DNA of 32,759 nucleotides from positions 1 to 32,759 of the forward strand of contig JAUPUG010000038.1 of the NCBI GenBank assembly GCA_030917685.1. The letters are read 5' to 3'. The notes below the pieces were generated by a model. The model searched no databases. It saw nothing but the letters and a program-made list of their open reading frames with translations, and was not told where the DNA came from. Position 1 is the first letter of the stretch. The number at the start of each line of letters is the position of its first letter. Of the stretch, positions 2,331 through 25,591 are shown piece after piece. Position numbers and translations under genes: made by a program. Source of the stretch: Patescibacteria group bacterium. GTDB lineage: Bacteria; Patescibacteriota; Minisyncoccia; Phycocordibacterales; CAIZLB01.

Positions 2331-2990
2331 TTACTGCTTATCTACTAGTATATCAATAAATTGTCGAATATCCTGCTTGTAGGTGTTGAAGAGGTAAATA
2401 AAATCATCAGTGAATGAATCTGTGTTTTTAACAATCTCTTTCTCAATTTCCTCAAATGAATATAACAACACTCCTTTAGCTTCTCGGTCTACTGGTTTGG
2501 TGGCACCTCCATATATACCAAAGAATAGATGCATCTTGTTCGCAATAGTTATTTTTTCATTTTTAATAACTTTTGGAATAGAGACGAGCTTTACGTCGTG
2601 ATATAAAATCACAGCAATAGTATCTAAATAGTTTTCGAGTAGAGTGTAGGTCTTTTTAAATTCATCTTTAGTATTTAATACAATAGATGGAGTCTGAAGT
2701 TCCTGAACACTTTCAATCATAGTTGTGTAGTATGGTTGATCACCAAACTGAATATGTCCACCAATAGTCTTATCGAGTAAATCAGGATTATGATTTTTTG
2801 TAGAAGATCTTTTTTGTACTAAAAATTCACCAGAGCGGTTAAATAGAAAAACGTCTATTACTTCAACTGCTTCAGTTGGTGCACCTGTATCTTTAAAAGC
2901 TTGTATTTGCTCAGAGTAAAATTCAGCTCTGTCTTTTGAATAAGACTTAAAAGGATTGTCGATTTTACATACAGAAACTTGTTCAGACAT
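2331..2990 (-). CDS. NUDIX hydrolase-like protein
   Basis: VIDVFLFNRSGEFLVQKRSSTKNHNPDLLDKTIGGHIQFGD...ESVQEL resembles a divergent Nudix box. Confidence 0.7.
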   Translation of the reverse strand: MSEQVSVCKIDNPFKSYSKDRAEFYSEQIQAFKDTGAPTEAVEVIDVFLFNRSGEFLVQKRSSTKNHNPDLLDKTIGGHIQFGDQPYYTTMIESVQELQTPSIVLNTKDEFKKTYTLLENYLDTIAVILYHDVKLVSIPKVIKNEKITIANKMHLFFGIYGGATKPVDREAKGVLLYSFEEIEKEIVKNTDSFTDDFIYLFNTYKQDIRQFIDILVDKQ

Positions 2991-3151
2991 ATTGAATCAT
3001 TATGGCGTTATTTACCCGCTTTTGCAAAGGGTGGGTTGGATAGGAGTGTCACTTTGAAAGGGGATAGTTCGCTGTCCAGACTGCGGAGCCATTACCTACA
3101 AATGCTTCCAAATTGATTTTCACAAGCAAAAATGGTAATCTAACCGAACAT

Positions 3152-12356: not shown

Positions 12357-12689
12357 ATGAAACACCTTATCCCATCAATTCAAGATCCGCTCGGTTCACA
12401 TATACATGCCAATTCTACAGCGCAGGTTATTGACCTTGCTGAGGAACAAAAACTCGCACGTGAGGTAGAGGGGCTTATTGAACTTCATGATTTTATAAAA
12501 GCTCATCCTGATGCGCCAGTGAAAGATATTGCAAAGTTTATGCCACCTGTTGATGCGCGTGTGGTAAATAAAGCGATACAGGCTCTGGCTATTCGAGACA
12601 AAAATCTCACAGCTGAAGAAAAAGAAGCTATTATACAAAGAGCTCGTTCAATACAGCTTGATCCAAAGGTGAAGAAGTGGGGGAAGTAG
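12357..12689 (+). CDS. Hypothetical protein, 110 aa
   Basis: Open frame with compact helical sequence. Upstream extended -10 TGC TATACT at 12295..12300. Confidence 0.6.
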   Translation: MKHLIPSIQDPLGSHIHANSTAQVIDLAEEQKLAREVEGLIELHDFIKAHPDAPVKDIAKFMPPVDARVVNKAIQALAIRDKNLTAEEKEAIIQRARSIQLDPKVKKWGK

Positions 12690-12720: not shown

Positions 12721-12749
12721 TTGCACGTTAGATAGTATCCACGTATATT
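12721..12749 (+). promoter_or_regulatory. Promoter of the cys leader
   Basis: TTGCAC (12721..12726)-17 bp-TATATT (12744..12749). Confidence 0.7.
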
Positions 12750-12756
12750 GTCATAC

Positions 12757-12831
12757 ATGAATGCAATAGCAAAGACAAAAACAACTGCAACAGTATCTGT
12801 TTGTATGTGTAACTCTAGAACTCATATCTAG
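12757..12831 (+). CDS. 24-aa leader peptide MNAIAKTKTTATVSVCMCNSRTHI
   Basis: ATG 7 nt after the -10 box. Cys-Met-Cys codons (TGT ATG TGT, 12802..12810) directly precede RNA segment 1; TAG stop lies in segment 2. Confidence 0.72.
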   Translation: MNAIAKTKTTATVSVCMCNSRTHI

Positions 12832-12909
12832 GGTTAGTCTTGCTATCACCATTTCCTCCACGAGTATTGATATCAGAAACAAGCCCTAGAGATAGGGTTT
12901 GTTTTTTTT
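12811..12909 (+). promoter_or_regulatory. Transcription attenuator with alternative 1:2, 2:3 and 3:4 pairings
   Basis: Segment 1 AACTCTAGA (12811..12819), segment 2 TCTAGGGTT (12827..12835), segment 3 AAGCCCTAGA (2:3 pairing uses 12882..12890). 1:2 and 2:3 are each 9 bp with one G-U. Confidence 0.75.
12877..12909 (+). terminator. Intrinsic terminator, 3:4 hairpin of the leader
   Basis: AAACAAGCCCTA-GAGA-TAGGGTTTGTTT, 12-bp stem with one G-U, then a T-run. Confidence 0.9.
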
Positions 12910-12976
12910 ATTAATTAACTAATGAAAGAAAGTCGCACCATAAGGACGGTCGTGTGGCTTGATTTCGCAAAATCAC

Positions 12977-13882
12977 ATGACACAGAAACACAATAATCAT
13001 TTAGACCAACTTGAGTCTGAAGCAATATTTATTTTCCGAGAGGCAGTAGAACAGTTTGAGAATCCCGTGCTCCTATTTTCTGGAGGAAAAGATTCAATCA
13101 CGCTTGTTCATCTGGCTCACAAAGCCTTTTACCCAGCCAAGATTCCATTCTCATTACTCCATATAGATACTGGACATAATTTTACAGAGACATTGGATTT
13201 TCGTGATGAGCTTGTAAAAAAGTATGGCGTTGATCTTGAGGTCGGGTATGTACAAGACTTGATAGATAGAGGGGTGGTACAAGAGGAAAAGGGAATTAAT
13301 CCAAGTCGAAACGGCCTCCAGTCCGCGACATTGCTCGAAAAACTTTCACAAAAAAAGTATGACGCTGCATTTGGTGGTGGAAGACGTGATGAAGAAAAAG
13401 CGCGTGCAAAAGAACGATTCTTTTCACATCGAGACGAATTCGGTCAGTGGGATCCAAAGAATCAAAGACCTGAAGTGTGGAATCTGTTTAACGGCAAAAA
13501 AGCACCAGGAGAATCGTTTCGAGTATTTCCTATATCAAACTTGACTGAGACTGATGTGTGGGAGTACATACAACGAGAAAAGATAGATTTACCAAGTTTG
13601 TATTTTGCACATGAGCGTAGTGTGGTTGAACGTGACGGCACCCTGCTCGCAGAATCGTCATACAACACACTGCTTCCAGGTGAATCATATGAGAAGCGAC
13701 GTATTCGATATCGAACACTCGGTTGTGTGACTATAACCGGCGCTGTTGAATCAGATGCTGACACGATAGACAAAGTAATAGAAGAAGTTAGAAGCTCAAA
13801 AGTAACTGAAAGAGGGACGCGGGCAGATGATGCCCGTTCAGAAGTTGCGATGGAAGAACGAAAGAAACAGGGATATTTTTAG
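12977..13882 (+). CDS. cysD: Sulfate adenylyltransferase subunit 2
   Basis: LESEAIFIFREAVEQFENPVLLFSGGKDSITLVHLAHKAF...LLHIDTGHNFTETLDFRDEL...GGGRRDEEKARAKER. ATG 12977 preferred over TTG 12959. Confidence 0.93.
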   Translation: MTQKHNNHLDQLESEAIFIFREAVEQFENPVLLFSGGKDSITLVHLAHKAFYPAKIPFSLLHIDTGHNFTETLDFRDELVKKYGVDLEVGYVQDLIDRGVVQEEKGINPSRNGLQSATLLEKLSQKKYDAAFGGGRRDEEKARAKERFFSHRDEFGQWDPKNQRPEVWNLFNGKKAPGESFRVFPISNLTETDVWEYIQREKIDLPSLYFAHERSVVERDGTLLAESSYNTLLPGESYEKRRIRYRTLGCVTITGAVESDADTIDKVIEEVRSSKVTERGTRADDARSEVAMEERKKQGYF

Positions 13883-13922: not shown

Positions 13923-15413
13923 ATGAAACAAAAAGAATATATAGAACCTTCGCCAGTTAGGCATACAGGAACGGAGAGTGCCATAGCTGCACAAGCACCG
14001 CATTATAAAAAAACTCACCAAGTAGACCTCTTGCGGTTTATAACAGCAGGTAGTGTAGATGATGGAAAAAGTACACTCATAGGGCGACTGATGTACGATA
14101 CAAAATCAATATTTGAAGATCAGCTTAAAGCAATAGAAGCTTCTAGTAAAAAGCGTGGAGATGCACAAGTAGATCTTGCACTTCTGACCGACGGGCTTAA
14201 AGCTGAGCGTGAACAGGGTATTACTATCGATGTAGCATATAGATATTTTTCTACACCAAATAGAAAATTTATTATGGCAGACACTCCAGGACATATTGAA
14301 TATACACGTAACATGTTCACTGGTGCATCAACTGCTGATGCTGTAATTATTTTAATAGATGCACGACATGGAGTTATTGAGCAAACGCGAAGACATACTT
14401 TTATAGCTACGTTGCTCGGTATTCGTCACATCATCGTTGCTATCAACAAGATGGACTTAGTAGATTTTGATCAAAAAATTTTTGAAAAAATAAAAGAGGA
14501 ATATCAAACTTTGATAGCTTCGACGCTGTCTGGTTCAACGTCAAAAAATAAACACGAACTTCATTTCATTCCAATAAGTGCATTGCGTGGTGATAATGTA
14601 GTAGATATTTCAAAACACACACCATGGTATAAAGGCGATACGATTTTGGAGACTTTAGAAAATGTGGATGTGCATTCAGGTGTAAATGTAAATCAACACT
14701 CGCTGGCAGCAGACGCGAACCCTGTGTCTCTCGGTAGATTTCCAGTGCAGAGAGTAATACGTCCGCAGTCAGCTGAGTTCCCAGATTTTCGAGGTTATGC
14801 AGGGCGGGTCGAGGGTGGAGTATTTCGTCCTGGCGATTCGGTTGTGATATTTCCCTCAGATCAAAAGACGCGAATCGATAAGATATATAAATATAAAAAT
14901 GAGCCCACTGAAGCAGTATCTTCCGATTCGATTGTAATGACTCTAGTGGATGATATTGATATTAGCAGAGGGGATATGATAGTTCAGGATTATTTACAAA
15001 AATCTGCGCGACAACCTATACACCAGATACATCAACCTATACACCAGTATGCATATCAATCTTTGCCTCAAGTAAGTAATGAGCTGAATGTATTAGTGAA
15101 TTGGTTCAGTGCTACCAACTTGCAAATAGATAGGCTGTATATATTGAGACATACAACACTTGAAACAAAAGCAGTTGTGAAGTCAATTGAATACAAAATA
15201 GATATTCAGACACTTACGCCGATACATACCATGGAAAACAGAGTCGGCACCGATATTGATGTAAAAATTGGGAAAAACGATATCGCGCGGATACAAATAA
15301 AAACTGCAAAGCCATTATATTTTGATTTATTTTCTCAAAATAAAGTTACCGGTTCGATATTACTCATTGATTCGTATACAAATGAGACAGTGGCGGCTGG
15401 TGTTGTTGTGTAG
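13923..15413 (+). CDS. cysN: Sulfate adenylyltransferase subunit 1 (GTPase)
   Basis: LLRFITAGSVDDGKSTLIGRLMYDTKSIFEDQ...KAEREQGITIDVAYRYF...DTPGHIEYTRNM...INKMDLV. Confidence 0.95.
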   Translation: MKQKEYIEPSPVRHTGTESAIAAQAPHYKKTHQVDLLRFITAGSVDDGKSTLIGRLMYDTKSIFEDQLKAIEASSKKRGDAQVDLALLTDGLKAEREQGITIDVAYRYFSTPNRKFIMADTPGHIEYTRNMFTGASTADAVIILIDARHGVIEQTRRHTFIATLLGIRHIIVAINKMDLVDFDQKIFEKIKEEYQTLIASTLSGSTSKNKHELHFIPISALRGDNVVDISKHTPWYKGDTILETLENVDVHSGVNVNQHSLAADANPVSLGRFPVQRVIRPQSAEFPDFRGYAGRVEGGVFRPGDSVVIFPSDQKTRIDKIYKYKNEPTEAVSSDSIVMTLVDDIDISRGDMIVQDYLQKSARQPIHQIHQPIHQYAYQSLPQVSNELNVLVNWFSATNLQIDRLYILRHTTLETKAVVKSIEYKIDIQTLTPIHTMENRVGTDIDVKIGKNDIARIQIKTAKPLYFDLFSQNKVTGSILLIDSYTNETVAAGVVV

Positions 15414-18506: not shown

Positions 18507-19973
18507 ATGTTCGAACAAGCCTTTAAAAATATAGATGATTCTCTGCGGAAAGATGCCGGTTCATCAAGCGAACTCGACTATATCGAGCAGACTTCATGGA
18601 TACTCTTTTTGAAGTATTTGGATGATTTGGAGAAAGATAGAGCTATCTCTGCAAAGCTAGCTGGTAAAAAATACCAATATGTACTACCCGAGGAATTGCG
18701 ATGGGAGACTTGGGCGTGTCCAAAAAACGCAGAAGGGAAGCTTGATCATACAAAAGCTCAAAATGGTGAAGACTTGAAAGATTTTGTTGATCAGAAGCTT
18801 TTTCCTACTCTCAAGAAGTTCAAAGTAGATGCAGAACATGCTGATACTATCGAATACAAGATTGGAGAGATTTTTAGTGAATTGAAAAATAAGATTCAAA
18901 GTGGATATACAATTCGAAATGTTTTAAATATTATCGACAAAATGCACTTTCGTTCGCAAGAAGAAAAGCATGAACTCTCACATCTTTATGAAGGAAAGAT
19001 CAAAAACATGGGTAATGCTGGTAAAAATGGAGGTGAGTACTATACTCCGCGTCCACTCATTAAAACTATTGTACAAGTAGTTGGTCCAAAGATCGGCGAT
19101 ACTATATATGACGGTGCTGTAGGCTCTGCGGGTTTTCTTGTAGAAGCTTTTGAGTATCTCAAAATGAGCAAGGGAAGTATTGAGAAACTTTCTGTAAAAG
19201 AAATGAATACTCTACAAAAAGAGACCTTCTATGGAAAAGAGAAAAAGTCTCTTGCGTACATCATTGGTATTATGAATATGATCTTGCATGGTATCGATGC
19301 ACCAAATATTATTCATACAAATACGCTGGGTGAAAACTTGATGGATATTCAAGAGAAAGATAGATACTCTGTAGTGCTCGCAAACCCGCCTTTTGGAGGT
19401 AAAGAACATACAGAGGTACAACAAAACTTTCCTATAAAAACAGGAGAGACTGCTTCATTGTTCTTGCAGCATTTTATAAAAATCCTCAAAGCAGGAGGAA
19501 AAGCTGGTGTGGTTATTAAAAATACTTTTCTCTCAAATACTGATAATGCATCTGTGGCTCTTCGAAAGCTTTTGCTTGAAAGTTGTAATCTTCATACAGT
19601 CCTCGATCTCCCAGGAGGAACTTTTACAGGTGCAGGGGTAAAGACTGTTGTACTTTTTTTCGAAAAAGGAAAAACGACAAAGAAAGTGTGGTTCTATCAG
19701 CTCAATCTCGATAGAAATCTCGGCAGAACTAATCCACTCAATGAAAAAGATTTGGCTGATTTCATAACTCTTCAAAAGACTAAGGCTGACTCTGAAAATT
19801 CATGGTCGGTGGATGTTTCGACTATTGATCAGAATACATTTGACCTTTCGGTAAAGAATCCAAACAAAGGTGGGGAAGTGAAGCTTCGTGAGCCGAAGGA
19901 TATTTTGAAGGAGATTTCTGAATTAGATAAAGAAAGTATAGAAATATTATCAGTAATAAAATCTATTATATAA
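18507..19973 (+). CDS. hsdM: Type I restriction-modification methyltransferase subunit
   Basis: GGEYYTPRPLIKTIVQVVGPKIGDTIYDGAVGSAGFL, ANPPFGG motif. Confidence 0.96.
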   Translation: MFEQAFKNIDDSLRKDAGSSSELDYIEQTSWILFLKYLDDLEKDRAISAKLAGKKYQYVLPEELRWETWACPKNAEGKLDHTKAQNGEDLKDFVDQKLFPTLKKFKVDAEHADTIEYKIGEIFSELKNKIQSGYTIRNVLNIIDKMHFRSQEEKHELSHLYEGKIKNMGNAGKNGGEYYTPRPLIKTIVQVVGPKIGDTIYDGAVGSAGFLVEAFEYLKMSKGSIEKLSVKEMNTLQKETFYGKEKKSLAYIIGIMNMILHGIDAPNIIHTNTLGENLMDIQEKDRYSVVLANPPFGGKEHTEVQQNFPIKTGETASLFLQHFIKILKAGGKAGVVIKNTFLSNTDNASVALRKLLLESCNLHTVLDLPGGTFTGAGVKTVVLFFEKGKTTKKVWFYQLNLDRNLGRTNPLNEKDLADFITLQKTKADSENSWSVDVSTIDQNTFDLSVKNPNKGGEVKLREPKDILKEISELDKESIEILSVIKSII

Positions 19974-19977
19974 AAAT

Positions 19978-20235
19978 ATGAACGGCATAAAATTTTCAGA
20001 TATAAAGACAGAGTTGCAGGCTGCCTTAGGTGAAAAATTAAAACAGACCCCAATTCTCGGGGAGGCCGGTTTTACGTTGATTGATGGTTTTATGACCTTG
20101 TCACTTAACGGTGAGTTATCAAACAATTTAATCATTGGTGGTCCAAGCATTCCTACTGTTGGAATTGTCGGTAACACGTCTGGTCGAATCTATACTTTTG
20201 CCTTGAAGGTTATTCTTCCTAATATTAAGATTTAA
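19978..20235 (+). CDS. Hypothetical protein, 85 aa, inside the hsd operon
   Basis: Starts 5 nt after hsdM and ends 1 nt before the next ATG. Confidence 0.6.
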   Translation: MNGIKFSDIKTELQAALGEKLKQTPILGEAGFTLIDGFMTLSLNGELSNNLIIGGPSIPTVGIVGNTSGRIYTFALKVILPNIKI

Positions 20236-20236
20236 T

Positions 20237-20767
20237 ATGAATGAAAATACTACAGAGGTATCATCAGATGTAAACGCTAAGCCTGCTGATTCTTCACAAA
20301 TTAGTGAAAATTTAGCTATTCAGAATACCGTAAATACCGAAACTTTTGATAATTTAAAGAAAGAAGTATTACAACTTAAAGATGATTTTAATAATGAAAA
20401 AAATAAAATTGTCTCGCTTAAAACAGATTTTGAAAAAAGTAAATTTGATCTAATTACGCTCATTGGTATTTTTGTAGGTTTAATTACTTATTTAGGTCTA
20501 GAAATTCAGGTGTTTAAAACTATTAACAATCCACTTTTAATCATTGGTGTATCAGTATTTTTTATCGCCTCGATCTTATTATTCATTCTCGGTATAAATT
20601 CAGTAATGAAGAAGATGGAGTCACTCACATGGAGAGATTTTAATAATCCTCTATACGTTATACTCACAGTTTTATTAATTATATCTATATTTTTTATTCT
20701 TATTGGTTATAAAGACTATTCAAATAGTAATCTCAATATTCACTATATAAGCAATTATGAAAACTAA
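20237..20767 (+). CDS. Coiled-coil plus transmembrane protein, inside the hsd operon
   Basis: NLKKEVLQLKDDFNNEKNKIVSLKTDFEKSKFD then three to four hydrophobic helices. Overlaps the hsdS start. Confidence 0.7.
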   Translation: MNENTTEVSSDVNAKPADSSQISENLAIQNTVNTETFDNLKKEVLQLKDDFNNEKNKIVSLKTDFEKSKFDLITLIGIFVGLITYLGLEIQVFKTINNPLLIIGVSVFFIASILLFILGINSVMKKMESLTWRDFNNPLYVILTVLLIISIFFILIGYKDYSNSNLNIHYISNYEN

Positions 20768-21968
20768 CTGGCAAACGAAAAAACTTGGAGAAGTTTGCGA
20801 GATTGTAAACGGCTCAACCCCATTGAGAAGTAATAAGGATTTTTGGGAGGGCGGTAATATTGATTGGTTTACAATTGAGGATATTAGGAAGCAGGGGAGA
20901 GTTATAAGGATTACTGAACAAAAAATTACTCAAAGAGCATTGAAAAAGATGGGTGATAGATTATTGCCGCCTGAGTCGGTATTGTTGTGCTGTACTGCAT
21001 CGGTGGGAGAATATGCCATAACAAAGGTACCTCTCGTAACAAATCAGCAATTCAATGGTTTGGTTATAAAAGATTCTAGAATTCTTAACCCTATGTTTTT
21101 GTTTTATTTTTCCTCAATGCTTAAGGATCATCTCCTGACACTTAGTGGCAAAGCTACAATTGATTTTATTCCTATAAGTAGATTGAAGAATATTGATATA
21201 AACTATCCTCAAATCTCTGAACAAAAGAGAATAGTCAAAATCCTAGATGAAACTTTTAAAAAAATTGAAAGAATAAAGAAGAATTTAGAAGCAAATCGGA
21301 GCAGTTCTATAGAGTTTTTTGACTCCTATTTGCAGGATGTGTTAAAAATGAATGCAAAAAAATGGAAAAGTTCAATTTTGAAGGAGTTGTCCATCAAAAT
21401 AGGGAGTGGGGCCACCCCTAGAGGAGGAAAGGATTCTTATACCAATGAAGGCACTTCTCTTGTTAGGAGTATGAATGTGCACGATAGATTTTTTAAAGAA
21501 AAGAATCTTGCTTACATAAACGAAAAACAAGCTAAGGATCTATCGAATGTTACTCTTGAAGAGAATGATGTGCTTGTAAATATTACAGGTGCATCAGTCG
21601 CGAGGTCGTGTGTATTTCCTGGAAAGTATTTGCCAGCAAGAGTCAATCAGCACGTATCAATCATCAGAGTGGATCAAGATGTGATTGATCCAAAATTCTT
21701 AAACTTCCTTTTAACTTCTAATTTTTATAAAAAGCAACTCCTTGCTACAGGTGAGCAAGGATCGACTCGACAAGCAATAACTAAATCGCAGCTAGAGTGT
21801 TTTGAGGTTGAATACCCATCTCTGGTAGAACAAAAATCCATCGTCAAAAAACTAGACGCCCTCTCAGAAAAAACTAAAAAACTAGAAGAAATCTACAAGA
21901 GAAAACTCCAGAATATAGATGAGCTTAAAAAGTCTATTTTGCAGAAGGCTTTTAATGGGAAGCTATAG
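20757..21968 (+). CDS. hsdS: Type I restriction-modification specificity subunit
   Basis: Two target-recognition halves (WQTKKLGEVCEIVNGSTP; WKSSILKELSIKIGSGATPRGG) and coiled-coil helices (SEQKRIVKILDETFKKIERIKKNLE; VEQKSIVKKLDALSEKTKKLEEIY). Confidence 0.95.
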   Translation: MKTNWQTKKLGEVCEIVNGSTPLRSNKDFWEGGNIDWFTIEDIRKQGRVIRITEQKITQRALKKMGDRLLPPESVLLCCTASVGEYAITKVPLVTNQQFNGLVIKDSRILNPMFLFYFSSMLKDHLLTLSGKATIDFIPISRLKNIDINYPQISEQKRIVKILDETFKKIERIKKNLEANRSSSIEFFDSYLQDVLKMNAKKWKSSILKELSIKIGSGATPRGGKDSYTNEGTSLVRSMNVHDRFFKEKNLAYINEKQAKDLSNVTLEENDVLVNITGASVARSCVFPGKYLPARVNQHVSIIRVDQDVIDPKFLNFLLTSNFYKKQLLATGEQGSTRQAITKSQLECFEVEYPSLVEQKSIVKKLDALSEKTKKLEEIYKRKLQNIDELKKSILQKAFNGKL

Positions 21969-22045
21969 GTTTGTATACATCTCTTGACTCAATGTATACA
22001 AACCTATATACTTTCTATACATTCAAAAAAAGATGTATACAAACC
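21967..22045 (+). promoter_or_regulatory. Promoter with three TGTATACA operator copies upstream of and over the fic start
   Basis: AGGTTTGTATACAT (21967..21980), ATGTATACAAACCT (21992..22005), ATGTATACAAACC (22033..22045). TTGACT (21984..21989)-17-TATACT (22007..22012). Confidence 0.8.
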
Positions 22046-23199
22046 CTAAAATCATGCAAATAGGCCAAAATATCCCACAGAAAGGAGGTTTTAAAGCTTT
22101 TATTCCAGACACCTTTCCACCAAAGGCTGGCTTTGAATTTGATTCAAGCATTATAAAAAAGAGTAATGAAGCTACACGACTTCTTGGTAAACTCGATGGT
22201 ATTACCAAGCTTCTTCCTGATGCTGACTTCTTTTTGCTTATGTATCTTAGAAAAGATGCGGCATCTTCAAGTCAGATTGAGGGAACAATGGCAACTATGG
22301 TAGATGCAATAGAAGTTGAAATACAACAAAGCTCAAATATTCCGCAAGATGTGGATGATATTTTGCATTACATAAAAGCACTCAACTACGGAATAAAAAG
22401 AGTGACCGACGAAGACTTTCCTATTTCACTCCGTTTTATTTGTGAGTTACATAAGCAACTTATGGACCAGGCTCGTTCGACACATCATGCGTATCCAGGT
22501 GAGTTTCGTCGAAGTCAAAACTGGATTGGTGGTACTAAACCAGAAACTGCTCGTTTTGTTCCACCGCCAGTAGAAGATATGCAGCGAGCACTCAATGATC
22601 TTGAAAAATTTATTCACTCAGAGGATTCTCTGTTGGATATTATTAAAGCTGGATTAATTCACTCGCAGTTTGAAACCATCCACCCTTTTACTGATGGTAA
22701 TGGAAGAACAGGGCGAATGCTTATTACGTTCTATCTATGGAAAGTTGGTCTACTTGAAAAGCCCGTTCTATTCCTCTCGTCATACTTTAAAAGACACCAA
22801 GAAGTGTATTACGAAAAGCTAGCAAGCTATCATAGTGATAACGGTAATATTTCAGATTGGATAAACTTCTTTCTTGATGGAGTTATTGAAATTGCAAAGG
22901 AAGCAATATCAACAGTTGAAAAAATCACTATTCTTCGAGAGAAAGATATGCTCAAGATCCAAAAACTTGGTAAGCGTGCATCAGAGAGTGCTTCTTTGGT
23001 GTTGCCAAAATTATACGCGCAGCCGATTATAAGTGTATCCCTTATCCAAAAGTGGACAGGTTTTACAAGAGCAGGAGCGCAGGCTGTTATTGATCGTTTT
23101 ATTGAACTCGGGATATTATCTCCTAAAGATAAGGATAAAAAGTATGGACAGTCGTATATTTACAAAAAGTATATTACTATATTCAGTGAGGGTGAATAA
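22033..23199 (+). CDS. Fic family protein with N-terminal inhibitory-type motif and C-terminal winged-helix-like region
   Basis: HPFTDGNGRTGR active-site motif; SSQIEGT; C-terminal LIQKWTGFTRAGAQAVIDRFIELGIL. Confidence 0.95.
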   Translation: MYTNPKIMQIGQNIPQKGGFKAFIPDTFPPKAGFEFDSSIIKKSNEATRLLGKLDGITKLLPDADFFLLMYLRKDAASSSQIEGTMATMVDAIEVEIQQSSNIPQDVDDILHYIKALNYGIKRVTDEDFPISLRFICELHKQLMDQARSTHHAYPGEFRRSQNWIGGTKPETARFVPPPVEDMQRALNDLEKFIHSEDSLLDIIKAGLIHSQFETIHPFTDGNGRTGRMLITFYLWKVGLLEKPVLFLSSYFKRHQEVYYEKLASYHSDNGNISDWINFFLDGVIEIAKEAISTVEKITILREKDMLKIQKLGKRASESASLVLPKLYAQPIISVSLIQKWTGFTRAGAQAVIDRFIELGILSPKDKDKKYGQSYIYKKYITIFSEGE

Positions 23200-23218
23200 A
23201 ATCAATTAATCTATTACC

Positions 23219-25591
23219 ATGAACGAATCCGAAACAAGAGCTGAACTCATAGACCCACAACTGCGTGAAGCTGGATGGGGTGTTATTGAGGACACAAAGA
23301 TACTTCGAGAATTTCGTATCACTCCTGGGAAAATAGAGATGGGTGACAATAGACGTAATCCTGAGATTGCGGACTATATTTTGGTATATAAAAATGAGAA
23401 GTTGGCTGTGGTTGAAGCAAAAAAAGAGTCACTCGACTATACCGAGGGTGTAGCTCAGGCAAAGACGTATGCGAAGAAGCTTACAATCCCTTTTGGATAT
23501 TCTACAAATGGAAAGGGAATCTATGAGATTTCCATGAATACCGGTGCTGAGCTTCCTGTATTAAAATTTCCAACACCTGCAGAACTCTGGGATAAAATAT
23601 ATTCAAAAGAATTACAAGCACGAAATGAGTGGAAAGAAAAGTTCCAGGCTGTTCCTTTTGAAGATGTGAATGCAACAAGACCTGCTCGATACTATCAAGA
23701 GATTGCAGTGAATTGTGTGGTCAATGCTGTTGCTGAAGATAAGCAGAGAATTCTTCTGACACTTGCAACTGGTACAGGTAAAACATTTGTTGCATTTCAA
23801 GTTGCTTGGAAACTATTCCAAGCTAGATGGAACAAGGCGAGAGATGGACAGAGACAACCTCGAATCCTCTTTTTGGCAGATAGAAATATTCTCGCAGATC
23901 AGGCGTACAATTCTTTCGGTGCATTTCCAGAAAATTCTCTAGTACGTATTACTCCTGCAAATATTAGAAGACACGGTGAAGTACCAATGAATGGAAGTGT
24001 ATTCTTTGCAATCTTTCAGACATTCATGAGCGGTCCAAATGAAACTCCATACTACGGTGATTATCCATCAGACTTTTTCGATTTCATTATCATAGACGAG
24101 TGTCATCGAGGTGGATCAAATGACGAATCAAATTGGCGTGGAATCTTGGATTATTTTTCACCTGCTGTACAACTCGGTCTTACGGCGACACCTAAGAGAG
24201 ATGACAACGCAGACACTTATAAATATTTTGGTGAGCCAGTCTATGTATATTCTCTCAAAGAAGGAATTAATGACGGGTTTCTCACGCCATTTAAAGTTAA
24301 GCGAATAAAAACTACACTCGATGAATATATCTATACACCTGATGACCGAGTAATAGAGGGAGAAGTAGAAGAAGGAAAAGTATATACCGAAGACGATTTT
24401 GCCAAAGGTGATATCCATATACAAGAACGAGAAGAAGCTCGTGTAAAAGTGTTTCTCAAGCAAATCAATCAGAATGAAAAGACCCTCGTGTTTTGTGCAA
24501 CCCAAAGTCATGCTTTGCTTGTTCGAAATTTGATCAATAAACACAAAGAGAGTGTTGACCCTGACTATTGTCATCGAGTAACTGCGAATGATGGAATGCT
24601 CGGTGAACAATATCTACGAGAGTTTCAGGATAATGAAAAGACAATTCCAACAATACTTACTACATCGCAGAAACTTTCTACTGGAGTAGATGCACGAAAT
24701 GTCCGAAATATCGTACTTATGCGACCTGTAAATTCAATGATTGAATTCAAGCAGATTGTTGGGCGAGGAACTCGACTTTTTGATGGTAAGAAGTACTTTA
24801 CGATTATCGACTTTGTCGATGCATATCATCATTTTCTTGATCCAGAATGGGATGGTGAGCCTGCAGAAAAAACTGATATAGAAGAAGGGGATGATGGGGA
24901 AACTGGAGAAGGAGACGAAGGTGGAAATACTCCACCAGGTCAGTCAAAAGTATGCGGTGATTGTGGGGAGAAACCGTGCGTATGTGAGACTGAACCAAAT
25001 CCTCCGAGAGTTGAAAAGCTAAAGATCAAGCTCGCTGATGGAAAAGAGCGAAAAATACAGCACATGGTTTCAACTTCATTTTGGAGTGCTGACGGTATGC
25101 CTATTTCAACAGAGCAATTTTTGCAGAATATGTTTGGTTCCTTACCTCAATTTTTTAAAGATGAAAACGAACTGCGACAGATTTGGTCAAATCCAACTAC
25201 TCGAAAGATATTCTTGGATAAGATTGCTATGGAAGGCTTTGAAATTGAACAGCTTGAAACACTGCAAAAGATGGTAGATGCTGAAAATTCTGATTTGTTC
25301 GATGTTCTCGCTTATATCGCTTTTACTAAAAAGCCTATCACTCGACTCGAACGTATTGAGAATACCAAGTACGACATTCTCGAAGGTCTTGATCAAAAGC
25401 ATAGAGAGTTTATTGAATTTGTACTCGCGAAATATCAAGAACGAGGAGTAGAAGAGTTGGATGAGGAAAAGCTGCCAGACCTTTTGAATCTCAAATATCA
25501 CTCTATTAGTGATGCGGAACGATTGCTTGGAGGTGTTGACGCTATTCGTACACTCTTCTTTAATTTTCAAAAGAATTTGTATTCGAAATAA
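23219..25591 (+). CDS. hsdR: Type I restriction enzyme restriction/helicase subunit
   Basis: EIADYILVYKNEKLAVVEAKKE nuclease motif, LATGTGKTFVAFQ Walker A, IIDECHRGG, LGLTATPKR, VGRGTRLF. Confidence 0.95.
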   Translation: MNESETRAELIDPQLREAGWGVIEDTKILREFRITPGKIEMGDNRRNPEIADYILVYKNEKLAVVEAKKESLDYTEGVAQAKTYAKKLTIPFGYSTNGKGIYEISMNTGAELPVLKFPTPAELWDKIYSKELQARNEWKEKFQAVPFEDVNATRPARYYQEIAVNCVVNAVAEDKQRILLTLATGTGKTFVAFQVAWKLFQARWNKARDGQRQPRILFLADRNILADQAYNSFGAFPENSLVRITPANIRRHGEVPMNGSVFFAIFQTFMSGPNETPYYGDYPSDFFDFIIIDECHRGGSNDESNWRGILDYFSPAVQLGLTATPKRDDNADTYKYFGEPVYVYSLKEGINDGFLTPFKVKRIKTTLDEYIYTPDDRVIEGEVEEGKVYTEDDFAKGDIHIQEREEARVKVFLKQINQNEKTLVFCATQSHALLVRNLINKHKESVDPDYCHRVTANDGMLGEQYLREFQDNEKTIPTILTTSQKLSTGVDARNVRNIVLMRPVNSMIEFKQIVGRGTRLFDGKKYFTIIDFVDAYHHFLDPEWDGEPAEKTDIEEGDDGETGEGDEGGNTPPGQSKVCGDCGEKPCVCETEPNPPRVEKLKIKLADGKERKIQHMVSTSFWSADGMPISTEQFLQNMFGSLPQFFKDENELRQIWSNPTTRKIFLDKIAMEGFEIEQLETLQKMVDAENSDLFDVLAYIAFTKKPITRLERIENTKYDILEGLDQKHREFIEFVLAKYQERGVEELDEEKLPDLLNLKYHSISDAERLLGGVDAIRTLFFNFQKNLYSK

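Follow-up and report, generated by a model that had tools for sequence, protein, structure and literature searches.

Ribosome-mediated transcription attenuators of the trp/his/leu type are classically known from Proteobacteria and are also found in Actinobacteria. His leader peptides occur in Firmicutes (PMC2965389). In mycobacteria, leaderless polycysteine uORFs precede sulfur-metabolism genes (Shell et al. 2015, PMC4633059). According to two later papers, these uORFs were put forward as the first bacterial attenuators directed by Cys and described as translational, and Cys-responsive attenuation is given there as proposed or shown (Canestrari et al. 2020, via PMC9031893 and PMC13236596). By analogy, the mycobacterial uORFs appear to be the nearest precedent, in both signal and mode of start, for the leader described below. 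In the set of papers searched, neither attenuation nor leaderless genes were described for Patescibacteria.

The window analysed here is a stretch of 32,759 nucleotides that forms contig C25 of a patescibacterial assembly of 728.7 kb in 86 contigs (79% complete; hereafter G000). Genomes sampled in the family, order and class of this host almost all measure 0.4-1.4 Mb. We compared the window with G010, a relative of the same genus whose assembly is 91% complete. Judging from its sequence, the plus-strand region 12721-12908 is probably a ribosome-mediated transcription attenuator placed before a two-gene cysDN operon. It is located between a 110-codon ORF (12357-12689) and cysD (12977-13882, plus strand, PF01507), which codes for the small subunit of sulfate adenylyltransferase. 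The next gene on the same strand, cysN (13923-15413, PF00009 and PF22594), codes for the large subunit, an EF-Tu-like GTPase. For cysD, the ATG at 12977 was preferred over the TTG at 12959 based on the alignment with G010 and on the place that this ATG holds in a family of 5′UTR elements (see below). Further downstream, the window carries the type I restriction-modification genes HsdM, HsdS and HsdR (18507-25591), the latter two separated by a Fic-family gene.

The original prediction had named every part of a trp/his-type attenuator in this region, and each of them could be read at its place. The predicted sigma70-type promoter consists of TTGCAC (12721-12726), a 17-nt spacer and TATATT (12744-12749), and is moderate by consensus since it is absent from the listing of a consensus scan. 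The ATG at 12757, 7 nt past the -10 box, opens a 24-codon leader ORF (12757-12831) coding for MNAIAKTKTTATVSVCMCNSRTHI, in which the putative regulatory codons TGT-ATG-TGT (Cys-Met-Cys, 12802-12810) stand immediately before segment 1. Cys accounts for 0.66% of codons in the sampled genes of G000. Segment 1 (12811-12819) can form 9 bp with segment 2 (12827-12835), or 10 bp if T12810-A12836 is counted, and segment 2, which holds the leader stop codon TAG (12829-12831), can alternatively form 9 bp with positions 12882-12890. The latter belong to segment 3, which together with segment 4 forms a predicted intrinsic terminator (12875-12908) with a 14-bp stem (arms ~12875-12888 and 12893-12906, -17.7 kcal/mol), a 4-nt loop and a U-tract. 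The terminator stands between the leader ORF and the first structural gene, cysD, as trp/his-type attenuators require. Segments 2 and 3 are joined by a linker (12836-12876), the inner part of which lengthens the 2:3 antiterminator stem in the predicted folds; TTTCCTCC, found in the linker, was considered as an anti-SD and rejected because the lineage lacks SD motifs.

The leader configuration is unlikely to have arisen by chance. When the terminator was kept fixed and the part upstream of it was shuffled 20,000 times, both alternative pairings reached the observed strength in 7 shuffles, 4 of which also had an ORF ending at segment 2; none of these 4 carried two Cys codons. Under loose criteria, some 1:2:3 alternative was present at 39 of the 235 terminator-like sites (many of them probably inside genes) in 106 loci, and CC or CxC occurred in ~4% of random ORFs of 15-35 codons, versus 0.4% of 24-residue windows of long ORFs. 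Since neither the geometry alone nor the Cys motif alone is convincing, the case rests on their combination and on conservation in G010.

Folding reproduced the logic of a trp/his-type switch. The free leader (12757-12910) had a predicted energy of -43.9 kcal/mol, compared with a mean of -28.5 kcal/mol for dinucleotide-shuffled sequences (z = -4.3), and folded into hairpin 1:2, the terminator and an outer stem, overlooked in the original prediction, in which 12838-12853 of the linker pair with the start of the uORF when no ribosome is present. Duplex energies were -12.4 kcal/mol for 1:2, -15.0 kcal/mol for 2:3 (-18.8 kcal/mol for the full antiterminator with the linker folded inside) and -17.2 kcal/mol for 3:4, and the three pairings are mutually exclusive as they share segments. 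The 3′ edge of a ribosome lies ~15 nt from the first base of the P-site codon. A ribosome awaiting Cys at codon 16 or 18 was thus modelled as leaving the RNA free from ~12815 or ~12821, respectively. With the ribosome edge at 12814 or 12820 and the RNA made up to 12892-12900, the core 2:3 pairs formed with a probability of ~1.0 and no terminator was predicted. The terminator reached ~1.0 when the ribosome was placed on the stop codon (RNA free from 12842), and again when no ribosome was present and the RNA had been made to 12900. For the full-length RNA at equilibrium, the terminator outcompeted the antiterminator, with a probability of 0.64 with the edge at 12814 and 0.92 with the edge at 12820. 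The switch must therefore be decided kinetically, during transcription, as in trp.

Translation of the uORF, termination, Cys-tRNA as the signal and cysDN as the output are what we infer. Transcription would start at or beside the ATG of the leaderless 24-codon ORF. Under a shortage of Cys-tRNA, the first ribosome would halt, its A site at Cys codon 16 or 18, and cover segment 1, allowing segment 2 to pair with segment 3 before RNA polymerase makes segment 4, and transcription would continue into cysDN. With plenty of Cys-tRNA, the ribosome would get as far as the stop codon and mask segment 2, so that 3:4 could form and transcription would stop at ~12908. Failure to translate the ORF would let 1:2 and the terminator form, giving a basal off state. 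Against this attenuator reading, the regulatory codons number only two and are split by a Met codon.

The proposed leaderless start fits the habits of the lineage. In a 232-kb sample of G000, 178 of 189 genes (~94%) had no SD-like core, and the positions of TATAAT-like hexamers relative to the first ATG peaked at -13/-12, with 26 genes there and mostly 0-6 at other offsets. The same signature was obtained from G010; 20 stretches of each genome were surveyed, along with the window and the G010 stretch L088. The TATATT of the uORF lies at -13 from its ATG, within this peak, and the uORF has no SD. Leaderless initiation is thus the expected mode, and these lineage statistics support the claim, made statistically, that the uORF is leaderless. 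In 478 kb of the two genomes there were 38 leaderless-looking intergenic short ORFs, and the cysDN leader alone joined Cys-x-Cys, a terminator and a gene downstream. A possible second attenuator is the leaderless-looking short ORF MKRSKNFANAV (L155:15024, contig C13 of G010), behind which lie a terminator-like hairpin and an ORF of 398 codons.

Among the 14 genomes of the family, cysD was found in only one other than G000, namely G010 (contig C15), with 96% protein identity. The two cysD genes differ at 91 of 906 bases (10%), and 75 of these differences fall at third positions (25% of such positions). The G010 leader aligns throughout with that of the window. Its -10 hexamer is identical, its -35 hexamer reads TTGCGC instead of TTGCAC, and the spacer has changed at 10 of its first 11 bases, a pattern expected of a promoter. 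The ATG, frame and stop codon of the uORF are kept, with five substitutions in codons 1-13 (two of them silent) and none in codons 14-25, TGT-ATG-TGT being identical. From codon 14 to the U-tract there is no substitution and a single 1-nt deletion, located in the linker; segments 1-4, and the whole of 12877-12908, are identical. As only two sequences are compared and the helices are unchanged, they offer no test of covariation. Beyond the terminator, 44 nt are missing from the distance to cysD in G010, and the spacing from promoter to terminator is kept; a flexible gap before cysD combined with a preserved promoter-to-terminator unit fits transcriptional rather than translational control. Between the upstream ORF and the leader promoter, G010 has ~400 extra nt with a run of N (L088, ~2624-3030) that are absent from the window.

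Conservation of the complete linker exceeds the needs of a minimal attenuator, which counts against the attenuator reading. The lack of substitutions across the entire stretch, loops and linker included, and the closed multi-stem structure with an outer stem adopted by the free leader would suit a ribosome-independent attenuator, in which the leader is an aptamer for a metabolite or protein that sets 1:2 versus 2:3 and the ORF is incidental. We consider such an aptamer unlikely: the outer stem is weakened in G010, where the part of the ORF that changes is the very part forming this stem, no Rfam riboswitch, T-box or leader family was detected at threshold, and it would have to be a coincidence that the Cys codons and the stop codon are placed so exactly with respect to segments 1 and 2. 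In particular, no Rfam 15 family reached its gathering score in the leader, and T-box and SAM families were absent even at E values up to 10, leading us to reject a T-box or SAM riboswitch.

The minus strand of the same region also contains an ORF (~12754-12852, 33 codons), which raises the alternative that a conserved gene codes there for the 33-aa Cys-rich protein MVIARLTLDMSSRVTHTNRYCCSCFCLCYCIHV, starting near 12852 behind a GGAGG ribosome-binding site. This SD-like GGAGG and six Cys speak for a gene, and in G010 the frame is open and still has six Cys, with a GTG start shifted by the 1-nt deletion. However, forward ACA/GCA codons automatically yield Cys codons in the reverse reading, the lineage has almost no SD motifs, the start codon is not kept in G010, the changes fall mainly at first and second positions of the reverse codons, and the promoter-like conservation and the terminator point forward. 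A minus-strand gene is thereby very improbable, and the antisense Cys-rich ORF is probably a by-product of the plus-strand ACA/GCA codons.

The forward leader was well matched in only two of the 397 genomes of the order, which are the two carriers of cysDN. Ten other leader matches in this set were inspected and dismissed as chance similarities, mostly inside genes. In the other genomes of the family that were examined, the leader and cysD were both absent, G003 showing a chance-level 44-nt similarity inside a gene. In one of the ten matches, from G654 (L109, around 1501), the start of the uORF (ATGCAATAGCAAAGACAAA) is similar to the 3′ terminus of a gene that looks like ribosomal L10 and precedes a likely L7/L12 gene, which may be chance or a trace of where the uORF came from. 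The joint presence and joint absence of the leader and cysDN in the family bears on a further alternative, according to which the region yields a stand-alone short transcript, either a small RNA or a peptide, with its own terminator, and cysDN is transcribed from elsewhere. The strength of the terminator and the terminated state that the leader adopts by default are compatible with such a transcript, as is the insertion of ~400 nt just upstream in G010, next to which the unit behaves as a block. Yet neither G000 nor G010 has, between the terminator and cysD, a -10-like hexamer suited to a second promoter, and the 2:3 antiterminator pairing would be left without a role. Together with the shared distribution, these observations make a stand-alone transcript distinctly unlikely, and we retain the attenuator as the preferred reading.

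Outside the genus, none of the cysD genes examined had this leader. Bacteroidota supply the most similar CysD proteins (up to 70% identity), yet a Bacteroidota origin of the leader was rejected, as no comparable leader stood before cysD in a scan of 80 related loci, mostly from Bacteroidota and Verrucomicrobiota. Nor did inspection or scanning reveal a leader at three further cysD genes from this phylum: in G081, cysD begins 11 nt or less after cysC; in G1048, it lies closely behind another gene; and in G897, a cysN-like gene is upstream on the opposite strand. Of the cysD orthologues, whose alignment had been suggested along with the original prediction, the one in G010 keeps the Cys uORF, the terminator and the pairings, with no changes in the helices; the others examined have no leader. 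On present sequences, a Cys attenuator does not appear to be a general feature of cysD.

The RNA that would extend beyond the terminator contains a second structured element. A two-hairpin 5′UTR element (12928-12979, plus strand) ends in the cysD ATG and matched our model R1, built from 13 copies, with 63.6 bits. The family consensus comprises a stem GYCGCGC/GCGCGRC whose loop contains GGACG, then UGAUUU-CGCW-AAAUCA and, as a rule after a single base, AUG. The distance to the ATG is the same in 11 of the 13 copies first collected, and about two thirds of 41 aligned matches end in ATG, some lower-scoring ones lacking it. Across these 41 matches, 99.2% of the cells pair and double changes occur in 12 of the 13 pairs, which not one of 500 shuffles or slid controls equalled; the alignment itself was fitted to the model. 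Of 297 genomes searched within the order, 38 carry the family, one of them, of 0.5 Mb, with as many as 19 copies; a sample of 191 genomes across the class added a single carrier from outside the order. Read from the sequences, the genes that it precedes are unrelated: DnaK, DnaG, aminoacyl-tRNA synthetases, PurC, a response regulator and cysD. It has no match in Rfam and apparently has not been reported before, and no promoter at a fixed position was seen before its copies. At G010 cysD, the first hairpin has been lost through the 44-nt indel. The element may act in translation start or in regulation in this SD-poor lineage, and the family may bear on how translation starts without Shine-Dalgarno sequences in such cells.

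The metabolic setting gives the attenuator no evident use. No APS kinase (CysC), PAPS/APS reductase (CysH; no second PAPS_reduct protein) or cysteine synthase (CysK; no PALP-family protein) was found in G000 or G010, the same searches being positive in control genomes. Incompleteness of the assembly could explain the absence of these genes from one genome, and would less likely explain it in both. With no recognised consumer of APS in G000 or G010, feedback by cysteine has no obvious purpose. The proposal that a sulfur amino acid gates sulfate activation is thus unsupported, as the link from CysDN to cysteine is missing. The mechanism class of the original prediction fits the sequence, folding, conservation and lineage evidence, its physiological story finds no such support, and the mechanism is better supported than the purpose. 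It is possible, with considerable doubt attached to the picture as a whole, that a lineage seemingly unable to make cysteine has a leaderless transcription attenuator sensing Cys-tRNA, that scarcity of cysteine serves as a cue to make APS for another purpose, and that the mRNA continues into an undescribed structured 5′UTR element replacing the SD at cysD. If so, sulfate activation would be under the control of cysteine in a cell that has no recognisable way of making it, which is a puzzle in itself.

If the reading is right, ribosome-mediated attenuation with a cysteine signal extends to a streamlined lineage whose gene regulation is little known, and attenuation is tied to leaderless translation outside mycobacteria. 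Attenuating transcription ahead of sulfur genes is something that the cysDN leader would have in common with T-box and S-box (SAM) leaders. With the mycobacterial uORFs it shares a short ORF with Cys codons before sulfur genes, and its -10 box at -13 would fit a leaderless start like theirs; the Cys codons are contiguous in mycobacteria, whereas here Cys-Met-Cys is followed by six further codons, an intrinsic terminator and an antiterminator. Like attenuators of the trp/his/leu type, it places its regulatory codons before segment 1 and has three mutually exclusive hairpins, an intrinsic terminator and a stop codon positioned to mask segment 2. Unlike them, it would have Cys as its signal, in place of Trp, His or a branched-chain amino acid, with only two regulatory codons in an apparently leaderless uORF of a patescibacterial host, and it precedes genes that make APS in a genome without a recognisable route to cysteine.
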